Source: Rikenella microfusus (GTDB taxonomy: Bacteria; Bacteroidota; Bacteroidia; Bacteroidales; VadinHA17). From it: a stretch of 64,000 bases of DNA. The notes under the pieces are model-generated. The model had not been told where the DNA came from and did no database searches. It saw nothing but the letters and a program-made list of their open reading frames with translations. Shown in pieces: positions 1,632 to 48,804 of the stretch. The position numbers and the translations under genes are program-made. Numbering within the stretch: the stretch's first letter is position 1; each line of letters opens with the position of its first letter. Where the stretch lies: positions 1 to 64,000 of the forward strand of contig DZBJ01000011.1 in the NCBI GenBank assembly GCA_022736275.1, written 5' to 3'.

Positions 1632-2933
1632 ATGGACAACGAAACTGTAAAACAGGAAAAATGGTACCAGTCGATTACCGTCAAGATGGTACTGCTTGCA
1701 ATTATGGGCCTTATGTTGCTCATCCCTCTGGTTCTGATCATGGAGGTAATACGTGAACGTGCGCAGAATGCAGATGCCGCTCGTCTCGAGATAGGAGCTC
1801 TCTGGGCTTCGGCACAGACGGTCACCGGTCCGGTGCTGAATGTACCCGGCACCAAGGTCATTAACGAGGATGGCAGGTATGTCACAACAACAATGCATAT
1901 CCTCCCGGATGATCTTACAGTCAACGGCGTGCTCATGCCTGAGATCCGTTACCGCGGTATTTACGAGACCGTGGTCTATGACTCTGACCTGAAGATATCA
2001 GGCAGCTTCTCCCTGGCGGGCTACGAGCACCTCAATGACTATACCTGGCAGTGGGACAAGGCGTATGTTTCACTGGGCGTTTCCGACAACAAGGGTATCA
2101 GTGACAAAGCTGAGCTGTCAACAGGAGGAAAAGTCATCGGGGCGATGCCCGGGGCCGGACAGGCGGACCTTTTCGAAAAGGGGATATCATTCCCGATGCC
2201 AATTGATCAGGCAAAGAGCAGCGAGTTCAATGGCCAATTCAGCCTCAGCCTGGGACTTAAGGGAAGCGGAAGCATAGCATTCTCGCCCGTTGGCAGGAGC
2301 ACTACGGTAAACCTTAAATCTGACTGGGAGGCCCCGAAGTTCACCGGCAACTTCCTGCCTGCCGAACGTAACGTTTCTGACAGCGGCTTCACAGCCAGTT
2401 GGACCGTAACCCATCTTAACAGGAGCTTCCCGCAGGTGTGGGCCGGACAGAGCTACATCCCTTCCGACGATGCATTCGGGGTGGACCTGATAATGGAGGC
2501 TGACCACTACACCAAGGCCGAGCGCAGCGCCAAGTACGGACTGCTTTTCATTGCCCTCACCTTTCTTGTGCTATTGATAATCGAGCTCAGATCGGCACAG
2601 CGGATACATATCTTTTATTACCTGCTGGTTGCCCTCGCGCTGATACTTTTCTTTTCACTTCTCACAGCCCTCAGCGAGCATATCGGTTTCAACCCGGCCT
2701 ACCTGATCTCAGCCGCCGCAACCATCGGCCTGCTGACAACATTCTTCTACTCACTTCTGAAAAAAGGCTGGATGGTGCTGCTTATCAGCGGCTTGCTTAC
2801 CTTGCTGTATGTCTTTATCTTCTTCCTGCTGGCAATGAAGGACTATGCCTTCCTGGTCGGGAACATCGGGCTGTTCGTGCTTCTTGCAGCGCTGATGATT
2901 TTCTCTGCCAGGTACAGGATTTTCAGGGAATAA
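1632..2933 (+). CDS. creD: CreD-family inner-membrane protein
   Basis: 433 residues, close to the family's usual 440-470. An N-terminal membrane helix (about 17-37, VKMVLLAIMGLMLLIPLVLI) is followed by the typical RxRxQ-like stretch, a large periplasmic domain (about 60-295) with TGPVLNVPG and LPDDLTVNG, and a C-terminal bundle of five or six helices (about 300-430). CreD in E. coli belongs to the CreBC regulon and affects envelope integrity and colicin E2 tolerance; its biochemical activity is unknown. Here control appears to come from the upstream winged-helix regulator rather than a two-component system, because the operator at 1594 covers its promoter. Confidence 0.9.
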   Translation: MDNETVKQEKWYQSITVKMVLLAIMGLMLLIPLVLIMEVIRERAQNADAARLEIGALWASAQTVTGPVLNVPGTKVINEDGRYVTTTMHILPDDLTVNGVLMPEIRYRGIYETVVYDSDLKISGSFSLAGYEHLNDYTWQWDKAYVSLGVSDNKGISDKAELSTGGKVIGAMPGAGQADLFEKGISFPMPIDQAKSSEFNGQFSLSLGLKGSGSIAFSPVGRSTTVNLKSDWEAPKFTGNFLPAERNVSDSGFTASWTVTHLNRSFPQVWAGQSYIPSDDAFGVDLIMEADHYTKAERSAKYGLLFIALTFLVLLIIELRSAQRIHIFYYLLVALALILFFSLLTALSEHIGFNPAYLISAAATIGLLTTFFYSLLKKGWMVLLISGLLTLLYVFIFFLLAMKDYAFLVGNIGLFVLLAALMIFSARYRIFRE

Positions 2934-2993
2934 AGGTTGGTTGGAGAATCCATTAAAGGCATATCAGCCGTAAGGGGAATTTTTCCTGAACTC

Positions 2994-3045
2994 AGGAGCC
3001 GGAGCAGGACATCTCACGCTGTCCGGTCCGGCTTCCTTATTTTTT
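2994..3045 (+). terminator. Rho-independent terminator after creD
   Basis: AGGAGCCGGA (2994-3003) and GGACA pair with TGTCC and TCCGGCTTCCT (to about 3036). A T-rich tail, TTATTTTTT, follows to 3045. The stem is long and GC-rich. It separates the creD unit from the glpD operon. Confidence 0.75.
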
Positions 3046-3137
3046 ACTCCCACCGGGATGAAGCAAAACAAAGTGGATATAATGTATTCTGAGCTTTTTG
3101 AAGTAACTTACAGGGGTGCTTTAAAACGCCTGCATCA

Positions 3138-4790
3138 ATGCTGTTAAAAAGGTTTATTGAAGAAGAGAGCAAGGAGAAATTTGACCTGATCATTATCGGA
3201 GGCGGCATCACGGGGGCGGCTGTGGCCTATATTGCCGCCGCAAGAGGCCTTTCCGTATGCCTGTTTGAAAAGAATGACTACGGCGGCGCCACCTCGGCGG
3301 CCACTTCGAAACTCATCCACGGCGGACTGCGCTACCTGGCCAACGGCGAGCTGAAGCTAGTGCGGGAATCGTTGCGCGAGAGACGGATCCTCGGAAACAT
3401 TGCACCCAATTTTGTCTATTCCCTGCCCTTCCTTATGCCGATGTACAGGAGATGGAAGGGAAATATCTGGAAGATGCTCGCCGGTATGTACATCTATGAC
3501 GCCCTATCCTATGACAAGAAGGACACATGGGACAAGAGCAAAAGACTCCAGAACCACAGGCTCATCTCATACAGGAAAACAATAAGACTGGAATCCAACC
3601 TAAGGAAGGAGGACCTTCGTAATTCCTTCTATTTCTTTGATTACCAGAGCATTTTTCCTGAGAGACTGACACTTGCCTTCATTAAATCGGCCGCGGAGTA
3701 CGGAGCCAGGGTCTCGAACTACACTCCCGTGGAGGGTTTTGTCTTTGGCGAAGGCAACAGGATAACAGGGGTGAAGGTCAGGGATACATTTACCAACACG
3801 ACAAGGGAGGTGCAGGGCAAACTCATCGTCAACTGCGGCGGCACATGGGCTGACAAGATACTCAACATGGCTGCAGGAAAGGATTCACCGGTCCTTAAGG
3901 TAAAGCGTTCAGAGGGAATACACATAATCACCAAGAAGATTGCAGGCAACCACGTGGTCTCGCTGCAGAAGAAAGATGGCGGACACATGATGATTATGCC
4001 CTGGCGTGACCACTCGCTGATCGGCACCACTGACAAGGAATTTCACGGTGACCCTGATGATTACCGTGTCTCACCGGAGAGTATTGATGAGGTCATTGAC
4101 AATGTGAATAAAAATTACGGCCGGAAGATCTCTCGTGCCGATATCATCCATGCCTATGGCGGTCTCCGTCCGCTGGTTGATGACCAGACCAAAGGCACGT
4201 ATGAGACCTCAAGGAAGTACGAGGTATATGATAATGCCACAGACGGCATCGATGGTATGATCACCGTCGAGGGCGGCAAGTATACCACCAGCAGGAGCCT
4301 GGCACGGGAGGTACTGAGACTGATCTCGGCCAAGCTGAACAGGACTCTCTCCGACTCGGTATCTGACAATCTGTATCTGTCGGGCTGTGAGATCAGGGAT
4401 ATGAGGCAGTTCATGATCAGGCAGCACCTCAACTACCGGGATTTCAGCCGCAACACTGTGGAGTATGTAAGCAGAAATTACGGCACCGAGAGCAAGGTCG
4501 TCTTCCAGATTGCCAGGGATGACATCCGCTTTGCCGAGGTCATAAGCCATGATGGAGAAATACTTGCCGAGGTGGTCTACGCCATAAGATATGAGAGCTC
4601 CAAGACTCTGCGGGACATCATGCTGCGTAGAACCGGAACCGGAACGCTTGGTAATCCGGGCATGGAGATAGTCGATAAGGTTGCCTCCGTGGCTGCGGAA
4701 ATGCTCGGCTGGGATGGCAGCAGGAGAGATGAGGAGATCGCGCAGATGATGAAGGTTTATGAACTATATCAGAGGAATGGAGAGAGATAA
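3138..4790 (+). CDS. glpD: FAD-dependent glycerol-3-phosphate dehydrogenase
   Basis: 550 residues. It oxidises sn-glycerol-3-phosphate to dihydroxyacetone phosphate at the membrane, passing electrons to quinone. The N-terminal Rossmann motif is at about 18-30 (LIIIGGGITGAAV), followed by the family signature SKLIHGGLRYL (about 58-68). Further on are the ITVEGGKYTTSR stretch and the C-terminal helical DAO_C domain (about 410-545). It is first in a three-gene operon: the next gene begins inside its 3' end and an FGGY kinase follows. No GlpF or GlpT lies nearby, so the operon may serve lipid synthesis as much as glycerol catabolism. Confidence 0.92.
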   Translation: MLLKRFIEEESKEKFDLIIIGGGITGAAVAYIAAARGLSVCLFEKNDYGGATSAATSKLIHGGLRYLANGELKLVRESLRERRILGNIAPNFVYSLPFLMPMYRRWKGNIWKMLAGMYIYDALSYDKKDTWDKSKRLQNHRLISYRKTIRLESNLRKEDLRNSFYFFDYQSIFPERLTLAFIKSAAEYGARVSNYTPVEGFVFGEGNRITGVKVRDTFTNTTREVQGKLIVNCGGTWADKILNMAAGKDSPVLKVKRSEGIHIITKKIAGNHVVSLQKKDGGHMMIMPWRDHSLIGTTDKEFHGDPDDYRVSPESIDEVIDNVNKNYGRKISRADIIHAYGGLRPLVDDQTKGTYETSRKYEVYDNATDGIDGMITVEGGKYTTSRSLAREVLRLISAKLNRTLSDSVSDNLYLSGCEIRDMRQFMIRQHLNYRDFSRNTVEYVSRNYGTESKVVFQIARDDIRFAEVISHDGEILAEVVYAIRYESSKTLRDIMLRRTGTGTLGNPGMEIVDKVASVAAEMLGWDGSRRDEEIAQMMKVYELYQRNGER

Positions 4791-10474: not shown

Positions 10475-10482
10475 CAAAGATA
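10475..10482 (-). promoter_or_regulatory. -7 box of the homocysteine operon
   Basis: On the minus strand the sequence reads TATCTTTG, a perfect match to TAnnTTTG. It touches the first base of the divergent EEP gene (ATG at 10482), so the two transcription units share about 50 bases of control region. No clear -33 TTTG is seen. No riboswitch would fit in the roughly 40-base leader. Confidence 0.5.
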
Positions 10483-11327
10483 TGCTTAGATCAGTTATCG
10501 CCGCAGCTGTTATTTCAATTCTTTTCTTTTCATGTGTACCGGATGATGACCGTGCCATTGATGTCATGACCTTCAACATCAGGTTTGATAACCCGCGTGA
10601 CAGCGTAAATGCCTGGCCCAACAGGGCTGCCATGGTCGCCGGTTTTATCAATGACCAGATACCTGATCTTCTCGGGATGCAGGAGGTTCTCTGGCACCAG
10701 TATGAATACCTCGATTCCTCACTGGCTGGTTACGGTTCGGTAGCAGCAGGACGTGATGACGGCATTCAGGGCGGGGAGGCCTGCCCGGTCTTTTACCGGC
10801 TCGGCAGGTTTGACATTCTTGCCAGCGGCACCTTCTGGTTGTCGTCGACGCCTGATGTTCCAGGGTCAGTTGGCTGGGGTGCGGCACTGACGCGCATAGC
10901 CACATGGGTCCGGCTGTATGATAAGACCGTAAGTGACACTCTCTTATACATGAATACTCATTTTGATCACATCAGTGACTCGGCAAGGGTGATGAGCTCC
11001 GGAGTGCTTCTGGCGAGAGTCAGGGAGCTGGCCGGCGACAATGAGTTTATTATCACGGGCGATTTCAACGCACGGCCTGAGAGCCTTGCCATGTCAAGGA
11101 TGACCGAAGCAGGGTTTGCCGTGGATTCATATACGATCTCCGAAACCCCGCCGGCAGGCGAGAGCTATACTTTCAACGGATGGAAGTCTGATCCGGGTGA
11201 GGGCCGGATCGATTATATCTTTGTCAGGAACGGGATGAAGGTTTCGTCGCACGCAACCCGCCGTGTGATTGACGATGGCGTTTTCATCTCCGATCACTGG
11301 CCGGTTACGGCAAGGGTCACCCAATAG
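10482..11327 (+). CDS. Exported endonuclease/exonuclease/phosphatase-family lipoprotein
   Basis: 281 residues. The N-terminal signal ends in a lipobox-like ILFFSC (Cys 18), so it is probably a lipoprotein facing the periplasm or surface. The DNase-I-like fold is shown by DVMTFNIRFDNP, LLGMQEVL (catalytic Glu), FIITGDFNARPES and the terminal SDHWPV. These supply the metal-binding Glu, Asp/Asn and His of the family. Exported Bacteroidota members may hydrolyse nucleic acids, phospholipids or sugar phosphates, and the substrate is not predictable. It is transcribed divergently from the homocysteine operon and ends 32 bases from the convergent chimeric ORF. Confidence 0.85.
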   Translation: MLRSVIAAAVISILFFSCVPDDDRAIDVMTFNIRFDNPRDSVNAWPNRAAMVAGFINDQIPDLLGMQEVLWHQYEYLDSSLAGYGSVAAGRDDGIQGGEACPVFYRLGRFDILASGTFWLSSTPDVPGSVGWGAALTRIATWVRLYDKTVSDTLLYMNTHFDHISDSARVMSSGVLLARVRELAGDNEFIITGDFNARPESLAMSRMTEAGFAVDSYTISETPPAGESYTFNGWKSDPGEGRIDYIFVRNGMKVSSHATRRVIDDGVFISDHWPVTARVTQ

Positions 11328-11359: not shown

Positions 11360-13741
11360 TCACAGATTGGGGCAGGCCTCCTGCAGTGCCCGTTCCATGA
11401 TGACATCTCTTTTTTCAAGAAAGGAATGATATGTTTCTGTCACAGGAATGTCAGGCATTATCGGGGCCCGCTTATCCATACCGCTGACAGCAGCAGCATA
11501 GGTGCCGCGGCCCATTGTTATTATTATCCGTGAATTATCAAGTGTAAATTCTGTACCCCTGCCGGCATTGCATTTATAAGTTGATCCGGAGGGAGTGCCA
11601 ATGAACTTGCCTATTCCATTGTACCTGAGAAGAGCACAGAAGTGCCCGTTGGTTGATCCGCAGCTGCCGTCAATAAGTGTGTAAAGATTTCCGGTAAAGT
11701 GATTGGTTGCCAGCGGAACAGGCTGTGCCAGCTCCTCATATCTCCCGTAGGACCCGGCGAAATACGGGACGGGTTTTTCTTCAAGGTATGACAGTAAAAT
11801 GACTGAACAGAATGGATCACCTCCGCCATTGCCACGGAGGTCAAGTATCAGATTCTCTATGCCCTTCTCTTTTATCAGGAGGAAGGATGAGTCCATAAAA
11901 TGCCTGAAGTAATCTACCTTGTCATAATAAATAAATGTCTCAACGGTCATCAGGGCTGTGTTTTTCCCTTCAATAATCTCCAGTCTGAGAGGAGGACTCC
12001 CGAAGTGAGCAAAGACAACTTTTCTCACTGATTCAATAGTAGCCGGTGTAATCGTCTTTGTCTCTGATGTTTTTCGTCCCGGCAAAGCATATTTTATCAC
12101 GTATTTTTGCGGAAAGCCGAAGTAGCTGGCATAAAACATCGGGAATCGCCTCGTGAGCTGTGCATCTTTGAACATCGGATTGAAGGCATCAGCAGATGTG
12201 ATTGTTCTCAGGCATTTAATGACAGTGGCTGCCGGAAGACCATTTATCTCCTGTAATATGCTTCCTCTCGGAACCTCCATGGAATCCCTATAACTACCGG
12301 TGACCACAACCTGATCGTCAATGAGCTTGATCTTAAGAGGAAACATATTTTCCGGGTGTGCATTAAAGAAACCACCGGGCATCCATGTAGCTGTATGCAT
12401 ACAGCCAATTTCAGCGGTTACAGGAGCGAGGAGGCGGAAAAATTCTTCGAGCCTCATTTGATCACCAATTCGATTATAGCTGAGCTCGAATAGACTGTCC
12501 ATCTTTGCTTTGGACGAGTATTCATAGAGGCAGCAATGGTTCTCTTCGAGGAGTCGTCTGAACTGGAGGAAATCTTCCTGCAGCTCTTTCTGGCCTGGAA
12601 GCTCTGTCTGGCCGGCAGGACTGACCTCTCCGAAGATCACGTCTGCCAGTCCGTTGCCCAGCTCCTGGCTCGACTGTGATATATGTATTATGGCCGGGAT
12701 GTTCTCAACTGACCAGTTAATTGTGTAGGGAAAGCTGGAGACGACGACCAGGATGGTATTGCGATTGGCAGCATGGACGAGTTTTACCAGGTCCTCCTGT
12801 TCCAGAGACAGTGCCTGCCGGTCAACATCCTCGCGGCCGTCGCTGGCCACATGGTTCTGACCCCATCCAAGGCCATAGCTGAGCGGGTGGTTTTCAACGC
12901 ATACGATGGCTACATCAGCCTCGCGTGCAGCAATGACTGCCGAGTCGGCCTTGTTGGAGGCTGCAAAGAGGATTTTCGTGTCGGTGCCCACGGCATTTCT
13001 TATGCCCTGCAGGGCGGTGATACGGTAAGGAGGTGTACCTGAATACCAGTCTGAGACCACCAGGTTGGCAGAAGGACCGATCACGGCGATGGTTTTATAA
13101 TTATTCTTCTGTAAAGGGAGGGTCTGGCTGTCATTTTTCAGGAGCACCACCGATCTCGAGGTGGCAAGGCGTGCCAGTTCCCTGGTCTCATCCTTTTTCC
13201 ATGGCGGAACCGTATCGGCAATCCCAATACTCCTGAACGGGTTTTCGATGTCTGTAGGTGAGTCAAGCAGTCCGAGCTTCAGCAGTACCCTCAGCGTTCC
13301 CCGTATGGCACGGTCGATCTCAGCTTCGCTTATGAGTCCCTCGCGGAGTGCTTGGGCAAGCGGATCCCTGAAGTTATCGAGGAACATCGTGGTTCCTGCG
13401 TCAAGGCACCCTTTTGCGGCGGTCTTAAGATCGGGATAATACTTGTGGTGTGTCAGCCAGCGTGTCTCTTCAGACTCCAGTGAAGCTACCTGGCGGAGCA
13501 GTTCCGGGTCCCACATCTGGGCAAGGCCAATTGCCTGCGGAAAGGTGGTGGTAACCGATGCTCCCTTGCCTCTGACGGCCCAGTTGGCAGGACCGCTAAG
13601 CGCAAGTCCGTGTAGTCCCTCAACGATCCTGGTGCCGTTTACGCCAAGCCGCGGCACTGACGGTCTGGTGGAGAGGCAGTTGATCTTCTCATCGAGGGTC
13701 ATCAGCGAGATGAGAATGTCAAGACGAGCCTCATCAGGCAC
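11360..13741 (-). CDS. Chimeric ORF: GH3 glucosidase remnant fused to S41 peptidase
   Basis: 793 residues from a GTG at 13741. Residues 1-95 match the N-terminus of a GH3 enzyme (SLMTLDEKI, TTFPQAIGLAQMWDPELL) but lack a signal peptide. At residues 95-97 (EETRW then LTHHKYYPDL) the frame jumps to the part after the catalytic nucleophile, so roughly 180 residues are missing, including the nucleophile Asp. Residues 97-376 are the rest of the GH3 domains, ending at FGEVSPAG. From about 385 (KELQEDFLQFRRLLEENH) to the end is a complete-looking S41 peptidase core with Ser in GSCGSTNGHF near 690. The GH3 part must be inactive; the S41 part lacks its own export signal. It is either a decayed fusion or an assembly artefact. 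It overlaps the upstream permease by 8 bases. Confidence 0.75.
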   Translation of the reverse strand: MPDEARLDILISLMTLDEKINCLSTRPSVPRLGVNGTRIVEGLHGLALSGPANWAVRGKGASVTTTFPQAIGLAQMWDPELLRQVASLESEETRWLTHHKYYPDLKTAAKGCLDAGTTMFLDNFRDPLAQALREGLISEAEIDRAIRGTLRVLLKLGLLDSPTDIENPFRSIGIADTVPPWKKDETRELARLATSRSVVLLKNDSQTLPLQKNNYKTIAVIGPSANLVVSDWYSGTPPYRITALQGIRNAVGTDTKILFAASNKADSAVIAAREADVAIVCVENHPLSYGLGWGQNHVASDGREDVDRQALSLEQEDLVKLVHAANRNTILVVVSSFPYTINWSVENIPAIIHISQSSQELGNGLADVIFGEVSPAGQTELPGQKELQEDFLQFRRLLEENHCCLYEYSSKAKMDSLFELSYNRIGDQMRLEEFFRLLAPVTAEIGCMHTATWMPGGFFNAHPENMFPLKIKLIDDQVVVTGSYRDSMEVPRGSILQEINGLPAATVIKCLRTITSADAFNPMFKDAQLTRRFPMFYASYFGFPQKYVIKYALPGRKTSETKTITPATIESVRKVVFAHFGSPPLRLEIIEGKNTALMTVETFIYYDKVDYFRHFMDSSFLLIKEKGIENLILDLRGNGGGDPFCSVILLSYLEEKPVPYFAGSYGRYEELAQPVPLATNHFTGNLYTLIDGSCGSTNGHFCALLRYNGIGKFIGTPSGSTYKCNAGRGTEFTLDNSRIIITMGRGTYAAAVSGMDKRAPIMPDIPVTETYHSFLEKRDVIMERALQEACPNL
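12582..12613. repeat. 18-bp-period direct repeat at the GH3/S41 junction
   Basis: AGCTCTTTCTGGCC (12582-12595) and AGCTCTGTCTGGCC (12600-12613) match at 13 of 14 positions. They encode GQKEL and GQTEL, exactly where the GH3 sequence stops and the S41 sequence begins. Microhomology of this kind is what one expects at a recombination or slippage joint. Confidence 0.7.
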
Positions 13742-14846
13742 GTTTGCGGTAGGCCCTGATAGCCAGCGTAATGAAGGCCAGTGCCAGAACTGTCAGCGCT
13801 ACCATGTCACGGGCAATATCCTGAAATCCGGATCCTTTAAGCATGACCATACGGTTTATGCGCATCAGGTAGGCCACCGGGTTCACATAATTGAACTGCT
13901 GCGCCCAGACCGGCATGCTCTCGGAAGGGGTGAAGATGCCGCTCATAAGGATGAAGATCATGACAAAGAAGAAGGCGATGAAGAGAAACTGCTGCTGGGT
14001 GGAGGCCATGGTTGAGAAGAAGAGCGCCAGTCCCAGCACCGCAACCAGGAATATCGCCGCGCAGGCAAAGAAGAGGAGGATACTTCCCTCGAAGGGTATG
14101 TCAAAGGCAATCCATCCCACGATCAGTCCCAGCGCCAGGTCGAACAGGCCGATGATAAAAAAGGGTATGACCTTGGAGGCTATCAGCTCCCATTTCTTCA
14201 CTGGCGTAACGTTAATCTGCTCAATGGTTCCGATCTCCTTCTCACGCACCAGGTTTAACCCGGCCATGAGGAGGCCGATTGCGGTAATGAGGATCACCAG
14301 TATGCCCGGAAGCATATAGTACTTGTAGTTGAGATCAGGGTTATACCAGTAGCGGGACGAGACGCTGATGCCCGGGATAGCAGCCGGCGCAAGACCTGAG
14401 CTTATGATTACATCACGATTGTAATCACGTACTATGGAAACCAGGTAATTCCAGCCCAGTTGTGCCGAGGTGGCATTGACGGCGTCGGCGAGCACCTGCA
14501 GCGTCGGCTTGCCGATGCCTGCCAGCCCCTCCGAGAAATCGTCAGGGATTATCAGTACAATATCGGCATCACCGGACAGCAGAAGCTGATCAGCACCAGC
14601 CTGTCCGGCAGGAGCCCCGCTGATCCTGAAGAAAGAGGAGCCGCTAAGTTTGGATATGAGCTCACGTGACGCAGGCGACCTGTCGTAGTCGGTCACCGCA
14701 AGGTCAATGCGCTTGACCTCGAAGGTGATTGCCGGCACCAGGATCAGCATCTGTAACAGCGGTACTGCAATGATCGCTCTGGCCATGAAGGGATTACGGC
14801 GTATCTGCCGGAACTCTTTTTTCAGAAGGAAGAGCAGCTTTCTCAT
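13734..14846 (-). CDS. ABC-2 type transport permease (YbhR-like)
   Basis: 370 residues: one N-terminal membrane helix (about 25-42), a long extracytoplasmic region (about 45-175), then five helices from GILVILITAIGLLMAGL onward. The ABC2 signature VREKEIGTIEQINVTPVKKWE is at about 200-222. It pairs with the similar permease encoded just upstream (ATGA overlap at 14843-14846) and with the two ATPases to form a heterodimeric exporter of the E. coli YbhGFSR drug-efflux kind. Its stop lies 8 bases inside the chimeric GH3-S41 frame, which is unusually tight for two unrelated genes. Confidence 0.88.
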   Translation of the reverse strand: MRKLLFLLKKEFRQIRRNPFMARAIIAVPLLQMLILVPAITFEVKRIDLAVTDYDRSPASRELISKLSGSSFFRISGAPAGQAGADQLLLSGDADIVLIIPDDFSEGLAGIGKPTLQVLADAVNATSAQLGWNYLVSIVRDYNRDVIISSGLAPAAIPGISVSSRYWYNPDLNYKYYMLPGILVILITAIGLLMAGLNLVREKEIGTIEQINVTPVKKWELIASKVIPFFIIGLFDLALGLIVGWIAFDIPFEGSILLFFACAAIFLVAVLGLALFFSTMASTQQQFLFIAFFFVMIFILMSGIFTPSESMPVWAQQFNYVNPVAYLMRINRMVMLKGSGFQDIARDMVALTVLALAFITLAIRAYRKRA

Positions 14847-47470: not shown

Positions 47471-48804
47471 TTCATAAAGGGTTGAGGCGGACCAAGAAAC
47501 AGGTTGCCCGGAAGCTGATCGCCTTCCGAGTATACACGGCTTCTCCTGACAGGGATGCTGCTTTTGGTCTTGGTGCCCTGAAGGACCCCGATGGCGGCAG
47601 CAAGCGATGCCTCCTGAGGATCGCCAAAATCGCGCGTGATGTCATCCGCTGCAAGAACGTCCGGCTCCATGCCCTCATAGAACCGTCCTTCGTCAGATGC
47701 GTTTACATACTCGAAGGTGATGGGGGCAAAGACATATTTATAGTCAGGATCGGGAACGCTGTTTGTCGGGAAGGGATAGCCCCATATATTCATCCCTGCA
47801 GGCTTGCCATATGTTGTGTCACCGACGAGGGTCACACTGACATAAGGCTTAAGGCTGTTGATCACAACCTCACTTGCCGAGGCGGAACTGCGTGAGGTGA
47901 TGAAGACCACACGGTCGAGTCCCAGGGGACTTTCCGTCCTGATAAACTTGTAACTCTCATTCCAGTCGGGCCCGACAAGACCGTTGTACTGCAGCTTGTA
48001 GCATATCTTTGTGGTGTCAGCAGGCTTCATCACCAGGCTTGAGAGTTGCTGGGCAATATCCATGTAGCCTCCCGTATTGTAGCGGAGGTCAATTATGAGA
48101 TCAGTTACATTGTTTGCTTTGAAAACTGCAAATGCCTCATTCAGCTCCTGTTCTGAAGGGTCAATGAATGTCTCGAAGGCAAGATATCCGGTCTTCCCGC
48201 TGGCCAGGTCAAGGATCTTTGCTGCCGTCACAGAATTGATTGTGAAGCTCGACTTGGTAGAGTTGAAGGTCACTGTGGTGCCGTCAGGCTTCTCGAAAAG
48301 GAATTTATTTGTGATACCTGCAGTTGAGGGTCCCAGCAGGGTGCTGTATGCCGCATCATTGCCTGAGATTAATATCGGGGCAATTGGTGTATCATTGATC
48401 TCCCTGACTATCCATCCTCTTCTTACTCCCTCAGGCCAGAGGTCAGACCCTTCGTAAAGGCTTGCCACCCTTACAATGTTTGAGTTGTCAAGGCTCATCC
48501 TGATGCCGTGTCCTACGAAGGAACCCTGCATTGAAGCCATAAAGCTGTCAAAGTCGCTGACAAAGCTCCACTTGTCTGTCGGACGGTGTCTCAGTGCATC
48601 GAGCAGCTCACCCGGATTGTCATAATCTGACAGTTTGACCGTTGGCATGGAAGTATACCAGAGGTAAGCGTATTTCATCAGGTCATAAAGACCGTAACGG
48701 GCCCTCTCATCGAATGTATATTCATCAGGAACAGGATCGGGATCCTTTTCACAGCTGTAGAGGAGGGGAATTATCAGTATGGTTATTAGCAGAATGCGTC
48801 TCAT
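47467..48804 (-). CDS. S41-family peptidase lipoprotein
   Basis: 445 residues. The lipobox is IPLLYSC (Cys 18). An N-terminal helical domain (YTFDERARYGLYDLMKYAYLWY) is followed by a PDZ-like region (SFVGHGIRMSL, GVRRGWIVREINDTPI) and the S41 core. The core has LIIDLRYNTGGYMDIAQQLSSLV and TSRSSASASEVVINSLKPY, with the likely catalytic Ser in the ASASE stretch and Lys in GKPAG. This is a Bacteroidota-type exported peptidase, probably surface or periplasmic. Compare the S41 part of the chimera at 11360, which belongs to a different subfamily. Confidence 0.9.
   Translation of the reverse strand: MRRILLITILIIPLLYSCEKDPDPVPDEYTFDERARYGLYDLMKYAYLWYTSMPTVKLSDYDNPGELLDALRHRPTDKWSFVSDFDSFMASMQGSFVGHGIRMSLDNSNIVRVASLYEGSDLWPEGVRRGWIVREINDTPIAPILISGNDAAYSTLLGPSTAGITNKFLFEKPDGTTVTFNSTKSSFTINSVTAAKILDLASGKTGYLAFETFIDPSEQELNEAFAVFKANNVTDLIIDLRYNTGGYMDIAQQLSSLVMKPADTTKICYKLQYNGLVGPDWNESYKFIRTESPLGLDRVVFITSRSSASASEVVINSLKPYVSVTLVGDTTYGKPAGMNIWGYPFPTNSVPDPDYKYVFAPITFEYVNASDEGRFYEGMEPDVLAADDITRDFGDPQEASLAAAIGVLQGTKTKSSIPVRRSRVYSEGDQLPGNLFLGPPQPFMK

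Follow-up and report, generated by a model that had tools for sequence, protein, structure and literature searches.

Organization of the fused gene

The window, by which we mean the whole analysed stretch of 64,000 nucleotides, contains an open reading frame (ORF) of 793 codons in which the remains of a glycoside hydrolase family 3 (GH3) gene run, without a change of frame, into an S41 peptidase gene. The ORF occupies the space (hereafter the slot) between an ABC-2 type permease gene and a facing Exo_endo_phos gene. The features of the locus are as follows:

10482..11327, plus strand: Exo_endo_phos gene, the facing border of the slot (Pfam and flank comparison)
11360..13741, minus strand: fused ORF, 793 codons, GTG start
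11363..12580, minus strand: S41 peptidase part, residues 388-793 (77-79% identity to the intact S41 of G013 and G021)
11654..11656, minus strand: codon of Ser696 in GSTNGH, the presumed S41 nucleophile (weak tricorn protease alignment)
12581..12613, minus strand: joint 3, from GH3 'SPAG' to S41 'QEDF' (orthologue comparison; approximate breakpoint)
12611..13453, minus strand: remaining GH3, residues 97-377 (end of the N-domain and most of GH3_C)
13445..13460, minus strand: joint 2, internal GH3 deletion between in-phase LTQ and VTQ motifs (orthologue alignment)
13454..13735, minus strand: GH3 N-domain remnant, residues 3-96 (orthologue alignment)
13733..13741, minus strand: joint 1, from the permease stop (13736-13734) into the GH3 remnant (comparison with G008)
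13734..14846, minus strand: ABC-2 type permease gene, the upstream border of the slot (Pfam and flank comparison)

The original prediction, a chimera of a gutted GH3 gene and an S41 gene in one 793-codon frame, was borne out by the ORF and by Pfam, which placed GH3_C at residues 198-386 (E = 1.8e-40; 139.5 bits, cut-off 31; profile positions 1-172 of 200) and the S41 domain at residues 617-721 (E = 3.7e-12; 46.6 bits, cut-off 24). The GH3 N-domain stayed below the threshold (14.9 bits, cut-off 27, residues 63-93 only), compared with 126.5 bits in the intact GH3 of the same-genus genome G008, and a whole-genome search with PF00933 gave no match at the fused gene while listing four other places. 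Residues 3-377 resemble the GH3 beta-glucosidase/xylosidase family, with 73-82% identity to G008 and G017 (blocks 3-95 and 99-378), and residues 3-95 are 78-85% identical to G008, G017 and L035. Members of that family have several features that are missing from the fused ORF: the nucleophile Asp, the greater part of the N-domain, the last part of GH3_C and the Fn3-like tail. Having lost this Asp and the bulk of its first domain, the GH3 half cannot, judging from its sequence, work as a glycosidase.

The other half is similar to S41 peptidases of the tricorn/C-terminal processing type in that its S41 domain scored above the cut-off and the STNGH motif, present in all six S41 rows of alignment A1, is retained, but it differs from them in having neither an export signal nor a start codon of its own and in sitting behind GH3 remains. 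Its match with tricorn protease was weak (E = 0.00068), and the role of the serine is taken from that alignment; from the tricorn active site, Ser696 would be the S41 nucleophile. With this presumed serine kept, the S41 domain appears complete, and the product would be a putative peptidase. Within the one ORF, GC3 was 0.62-0.65 in the GH3 part and 0.48 in the S41 part (11363-12580), the S41 genes of G013 and G021 having 0.565 and 0.646, respectively; the drop between the halves is suggestive of different histories, short of being decisive. The predicted structure of the chimera was poor (mean pLDDT 61.2, pTM 0.37), and that of the intact G008 GH3 used as a control (11 rows) was equally poor (mean pLDDT 52.5, pTM 0.49), so the structure says nothing either way.

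The three joints

At joint 1, the permease ORF (14846-13734) and the fused ORF overlap by 8 bases, and the ORF coordinates confirmed the proposal that a cut GH3 N-terminus adjoins the permease gene with such an overlap. The GH3 codons for 'DEARL' are reached from the permease stop, and the GH3 start codon is gone together with the signal-like peptide (29 residues in G008).

At joint 2, 152 codons (456 bp) were lost after residue 96. The original prediction had placed a gap of about 180 residues, including the nucleophile, at residue 95; the internal loss with its Asp stood, and the size did not. The lost stretch includes the TDGG Asp (D242 in the G008 segment), which we presume to be the GH3 nucleophile and which is invariant in all 11 aligned GH3 rows. 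In G008, the lost stretch starts with TQN and ends with LV, followed by TQH, giving two identical residues at both ends in one codon phase, and the window reads CTG ACA CAC CAC AAG at this joint. A deletion between two such in-phase motifs (TQN ... TQH) keeps the frame without selection. The choice between selection and artefact that had been offered to explain the open frame was therefore too narrow, the more so as the sister genomes G003 and G010 have undergone similar deletions (see below).

At joint 3, the sequence switches from GH3 to S41 at about residues 377-388 (SPAG, residues 374-377; QEDF, residues 388-391), close to the expected switch at residues 376-386 and, as expected, at a 14-base near repeat (12600-12613 and 12582-12595; 13 of 14 bases identical, offset 18). 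This is the sole such pair in the ORF at offsets of 14-40, and none of 60 dinucleotide shuffles had one. An 18-base near-tandem unit lies between SPAG and QEDF. The loss at this joint comprises 162 GH3 residues after SPAGR (in G008), including the Fn3-like domain, and about 36 S41 N-terminal residues with the signal-like peptide. The exact 39-base pattern across the joint had 0 matches in the viral contigs in which it was sought. Compared with intact GH3 and S41 orthologues, the fused ORF is without the hydrophobic N-terminus of either, and the claim that its product has no signal peptide holds in this comparison.

The slot in related genomes

Among 60 genomes searched, the window's own included, intact orthologues were found in four of the same genus, of GH3 in G008 and G017 and of S41 in G013 and G021, and in all four they stand as separate genes in this slot. 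The gene order in G013 and G021 is an hlyD-like gene, two ABC ATPases, two permeases, S41, Exo_endo_phos and then four further genes, and the flanks in the window are collinear with it across 11 genes, the chimera excepted. Since intact orthologues of each half occupy the same slot of relatives, the GH3 and S41 material can be taken from these sequences as native to the locus. Split genes at the same place mark a fusion born by deletion, and each half is indeed intact in the slot of two relatives. Two separate intact genes here in relatives had been named beforehand as evidence against the fusion; on that count what we found lies halfway, none of these relatives having both. Intact GH3 and S41 were not seen together in any of the 21 other genus genomes searched.

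The contents of the slot, with gene names assigned by Pfam, turn over across the genus: VOC, DUF1801, SiaC, lipocalin, GH3, S41 or nothing. It contains VOC, DUF1801 and GH3 on one contig in G017; a lipocalin gene and GH3 in G008, where two contig ends each carry part of the one lipocalin gene; VOC and DUF1801 in G009; VOC, DUF1801 and SiaC in G001; and SiaC in G002 and G014. It is empty in G016 (14 bp) and G006 (80 bp). In G018, SiaC is located beyond the Exo_endo_phos gene, and neither G018 nor G019 gave a permease above the threshold used. The tree of the flanks placed the window nearest to G015, the contig of which breaks off at the slot: 93 bases follow the Exo_endo_phos gene, and there is no S41 in them; the fusion is known from one genome. 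Note that GGCAGTAGGCAATAGGCAGT-type repeats follow the Exo_endo_phos gene in G015 (L095, 1-93) and, less regularly, in G010 (L083, after 2203), with none in the window when up to 3 mismatches were allowed; such repeats could destabilise the slot or hinder its assembly.

Similar deletions were found in two sister genomes. In G003 (L084, about 3355-4085), the VOC gene is shortened twice: 18 residues are missing from its start, and 93 codons have been deleted in frame at a shared CAG. At its cut head it meets a SiaC gene from which the first 52 residues are absent, so that this slot holds another chimera-like ORF. The VOC gene of G010 (L083, about 2678-3073) has lost 148 codons in frame, from between IQKL and IRKL. 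Together with that in the window GH3, all three internal deletions in the slot are in frame, for which the chance is 1 in 27 if the frame is random, although this was counted post hoc and out-of-frame deletions are harder to recognise. A filter on the slot favouring frame-keeping deletions as it decays would explain why all three are in frame, and the fusion would then still be translated, as an S41 protein relocated from the periplasm to the cytoplasm; we give this reading the least credence of those considered here.

These comparisons also bear on an assembly artefact, in which the bin mixes strains with GH3 or S41 in the slot and the assembler joined both. That the genus genomes searched had at most one of the two genes, never both, would fit such a mixture, as would an assembly of 187 contigs with 2.63% contamination, the breaks of G008 and G015 contigs within the slot or close to it, and the odd near-tandem repeat at joint 3. 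However, mixing two alleles makes neither joint 2, which lies within one GH3 gene, nor joint 1, which lies between permease and GH3. Assemblers typically join on longer overlaps than the near repeats at these joints, the longest of which spans 14 bases and includes one mismatch; moreover, the flanks are collinear with those of relatives, and the like in-frame deletions of the sister genomes come from other assemblies. We regard an artefact as unlikely.

Distribution of the fusion

The original prediction had raised the recurrence of the fusion in related strains and the presence of intact GH3 and S41 genes elsewhere in its own genome. There was no second fusion among the 60 genomes. In the family (117 genomes, as many as 8 candidates scored per genome) and in a sample of the order (393 genomes, no more than 2 per genome), the fusion was detected once each, both times in the window's own genome. 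Horizontal import of the whole fusion was rejected because no relative in the family set or the order sample carries it. In the same family, G024 has orthologues of both halves on one contig, far apart. Elsewhere in the window's own genome, the closest GH3 stretches show 29-44% identity, the 44% stretch covering residues 4-104, and the lost GH3 middle had no counterpart there beyond paralogues of 30-37% identity. Only the fused gene among seven S41 places in this genome matched the S41 half in a protein search. A second gene with an S41 domain lies in the window at 47776-48195 on the minus strand. Separately, the S41 orthologue on L105 (G449) has one in-frame TAA in the matched stretch, and this copy may be decaying.

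Rates of change and selective constraint

Faster protein evolution on the window branch was not found in either half (GH3 branch lengths: window 0.151, G008 0.186, G017 0.206; S41: window 0.133, G013 0.141, G021 0.178). Likewise, omega on the window branch did not differ from the background in any of the three blocks (GH3 N, 0.097 vs 0.035, 2dlnL 0.88; GH3 C, 0.056 vs 0.058; S41, 0.100 vs 0.100). The control tip G008 gave a foreground omega of 0.33 in the GH3 N block (2dlnL 7.67), above the 0.097 of the window. In the S41 profile, 2dlnL was 3.96 at 0.3, and values up to about 0.3 were not rejected; the GH3 omega curve was not smooth and had its optimum at the lowest value tried, and the S41 bound alone was used. 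Invariant columns broken in the window numbered 1 of 32 (GH3 N), 3 of 87 (GH3 C) and 1 of 120 (S41), where other rows broke 0-4, 0-5 and 1-11, respectively (18, 18 and 8 rows, short and fragmentary rows excluded). Two of the three broken GH3 C columns are radical changes (G to E, P to R). The absence of acceleration and of raised omega indicates that the fusion is young or that its product is still constrained, and both fit equally.

The latter would be expected of a working chimera, in which the S41 part is under selection in the cytoplasm and GH3_C serves as an accessory module for sugar binding or folding. The long open frame, the omega values equal to the background for S41 and nearly so for GH3 C, the conserved columns broken no more often than in other rows and the retained Ser696 are consistent with this reading. 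Against them, the S41 bound is loose, so that about a fifth of the branch could be neutral, and the synonymous sites of GH3 are saturated; the export signals of both halves are gone, GH3_C is itself cut, its broken columns are mostly radical, and no relative shares the fusion. A working chimera is more doubtful, in our view, than an error of assembly.

Origin of the fused gene

As the material is native to the locus, as joint 2 explains its own frame, and as the same process is seen in sister genomes, we conclude that the ORF is probably a real and recent fusion born by deletion, most likely a remnant rather than a new enzyme. An ancestor would have had the order permease, GH3, S41 and Exo_endo_phos, an order seen in no genome. 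Deletions, at least one of them at a short in-phase repeat, would have taken the GH3 start with its signal peptide, the catalytic middle with the nucleophile, and the GH3 tail with the S41 start and signal peptide. The remainder reads as one frame, which may be translated only after the permease, via the overlapping GTG or by re-initiation. Without export, the S41 domain would end in the cytoplasm, and its role has probably been lost too. Weighing against a remnant, no decay is visible in the substitutions, and the frame has been kept over 793 codons.

Gene fusion by deletion is already described in print. In the cases of one preprint, pieces of genes that were once apart have come together in a single ORF through a deletion, the split arrangement being ancestral (Kaul et al. 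2026, PMC12803068). The window ORF would likewise be made of fragments of separate genes joined by deletion, whereas the cases described there come from many isolate genomes and ours from one draft genome; in addition, the window ORF differs in holding three joints, one of them gene-internal, and in an S41 catalytic domain that looks complete. In Mycobacterium tuberculosis, multigene deletions create chimeric ORFs (Gallant et al. 2020, PMC7671302). The window ORF would similarly be a chimera from a deletion between genes; one chimera there was shown as a protein, whereas the present fusion is known from its sequence. The literature searched gave neither 'glycoside hydrolase family 3' paired with 'S41 peptidase' nor anything on microhomology fusions.

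The locus offers a clear snapshot of how deletions in a spot of gene turnover can make a long chimeric ORF, which gene finders would annotate as a two-domain enzyme. Such a gene in a MAG should not be read as a new glycosidase-peptidase. For the debate about how deletions give birth to genes, the present one is a further case, and it comes from beyond the well-sampled isolates.
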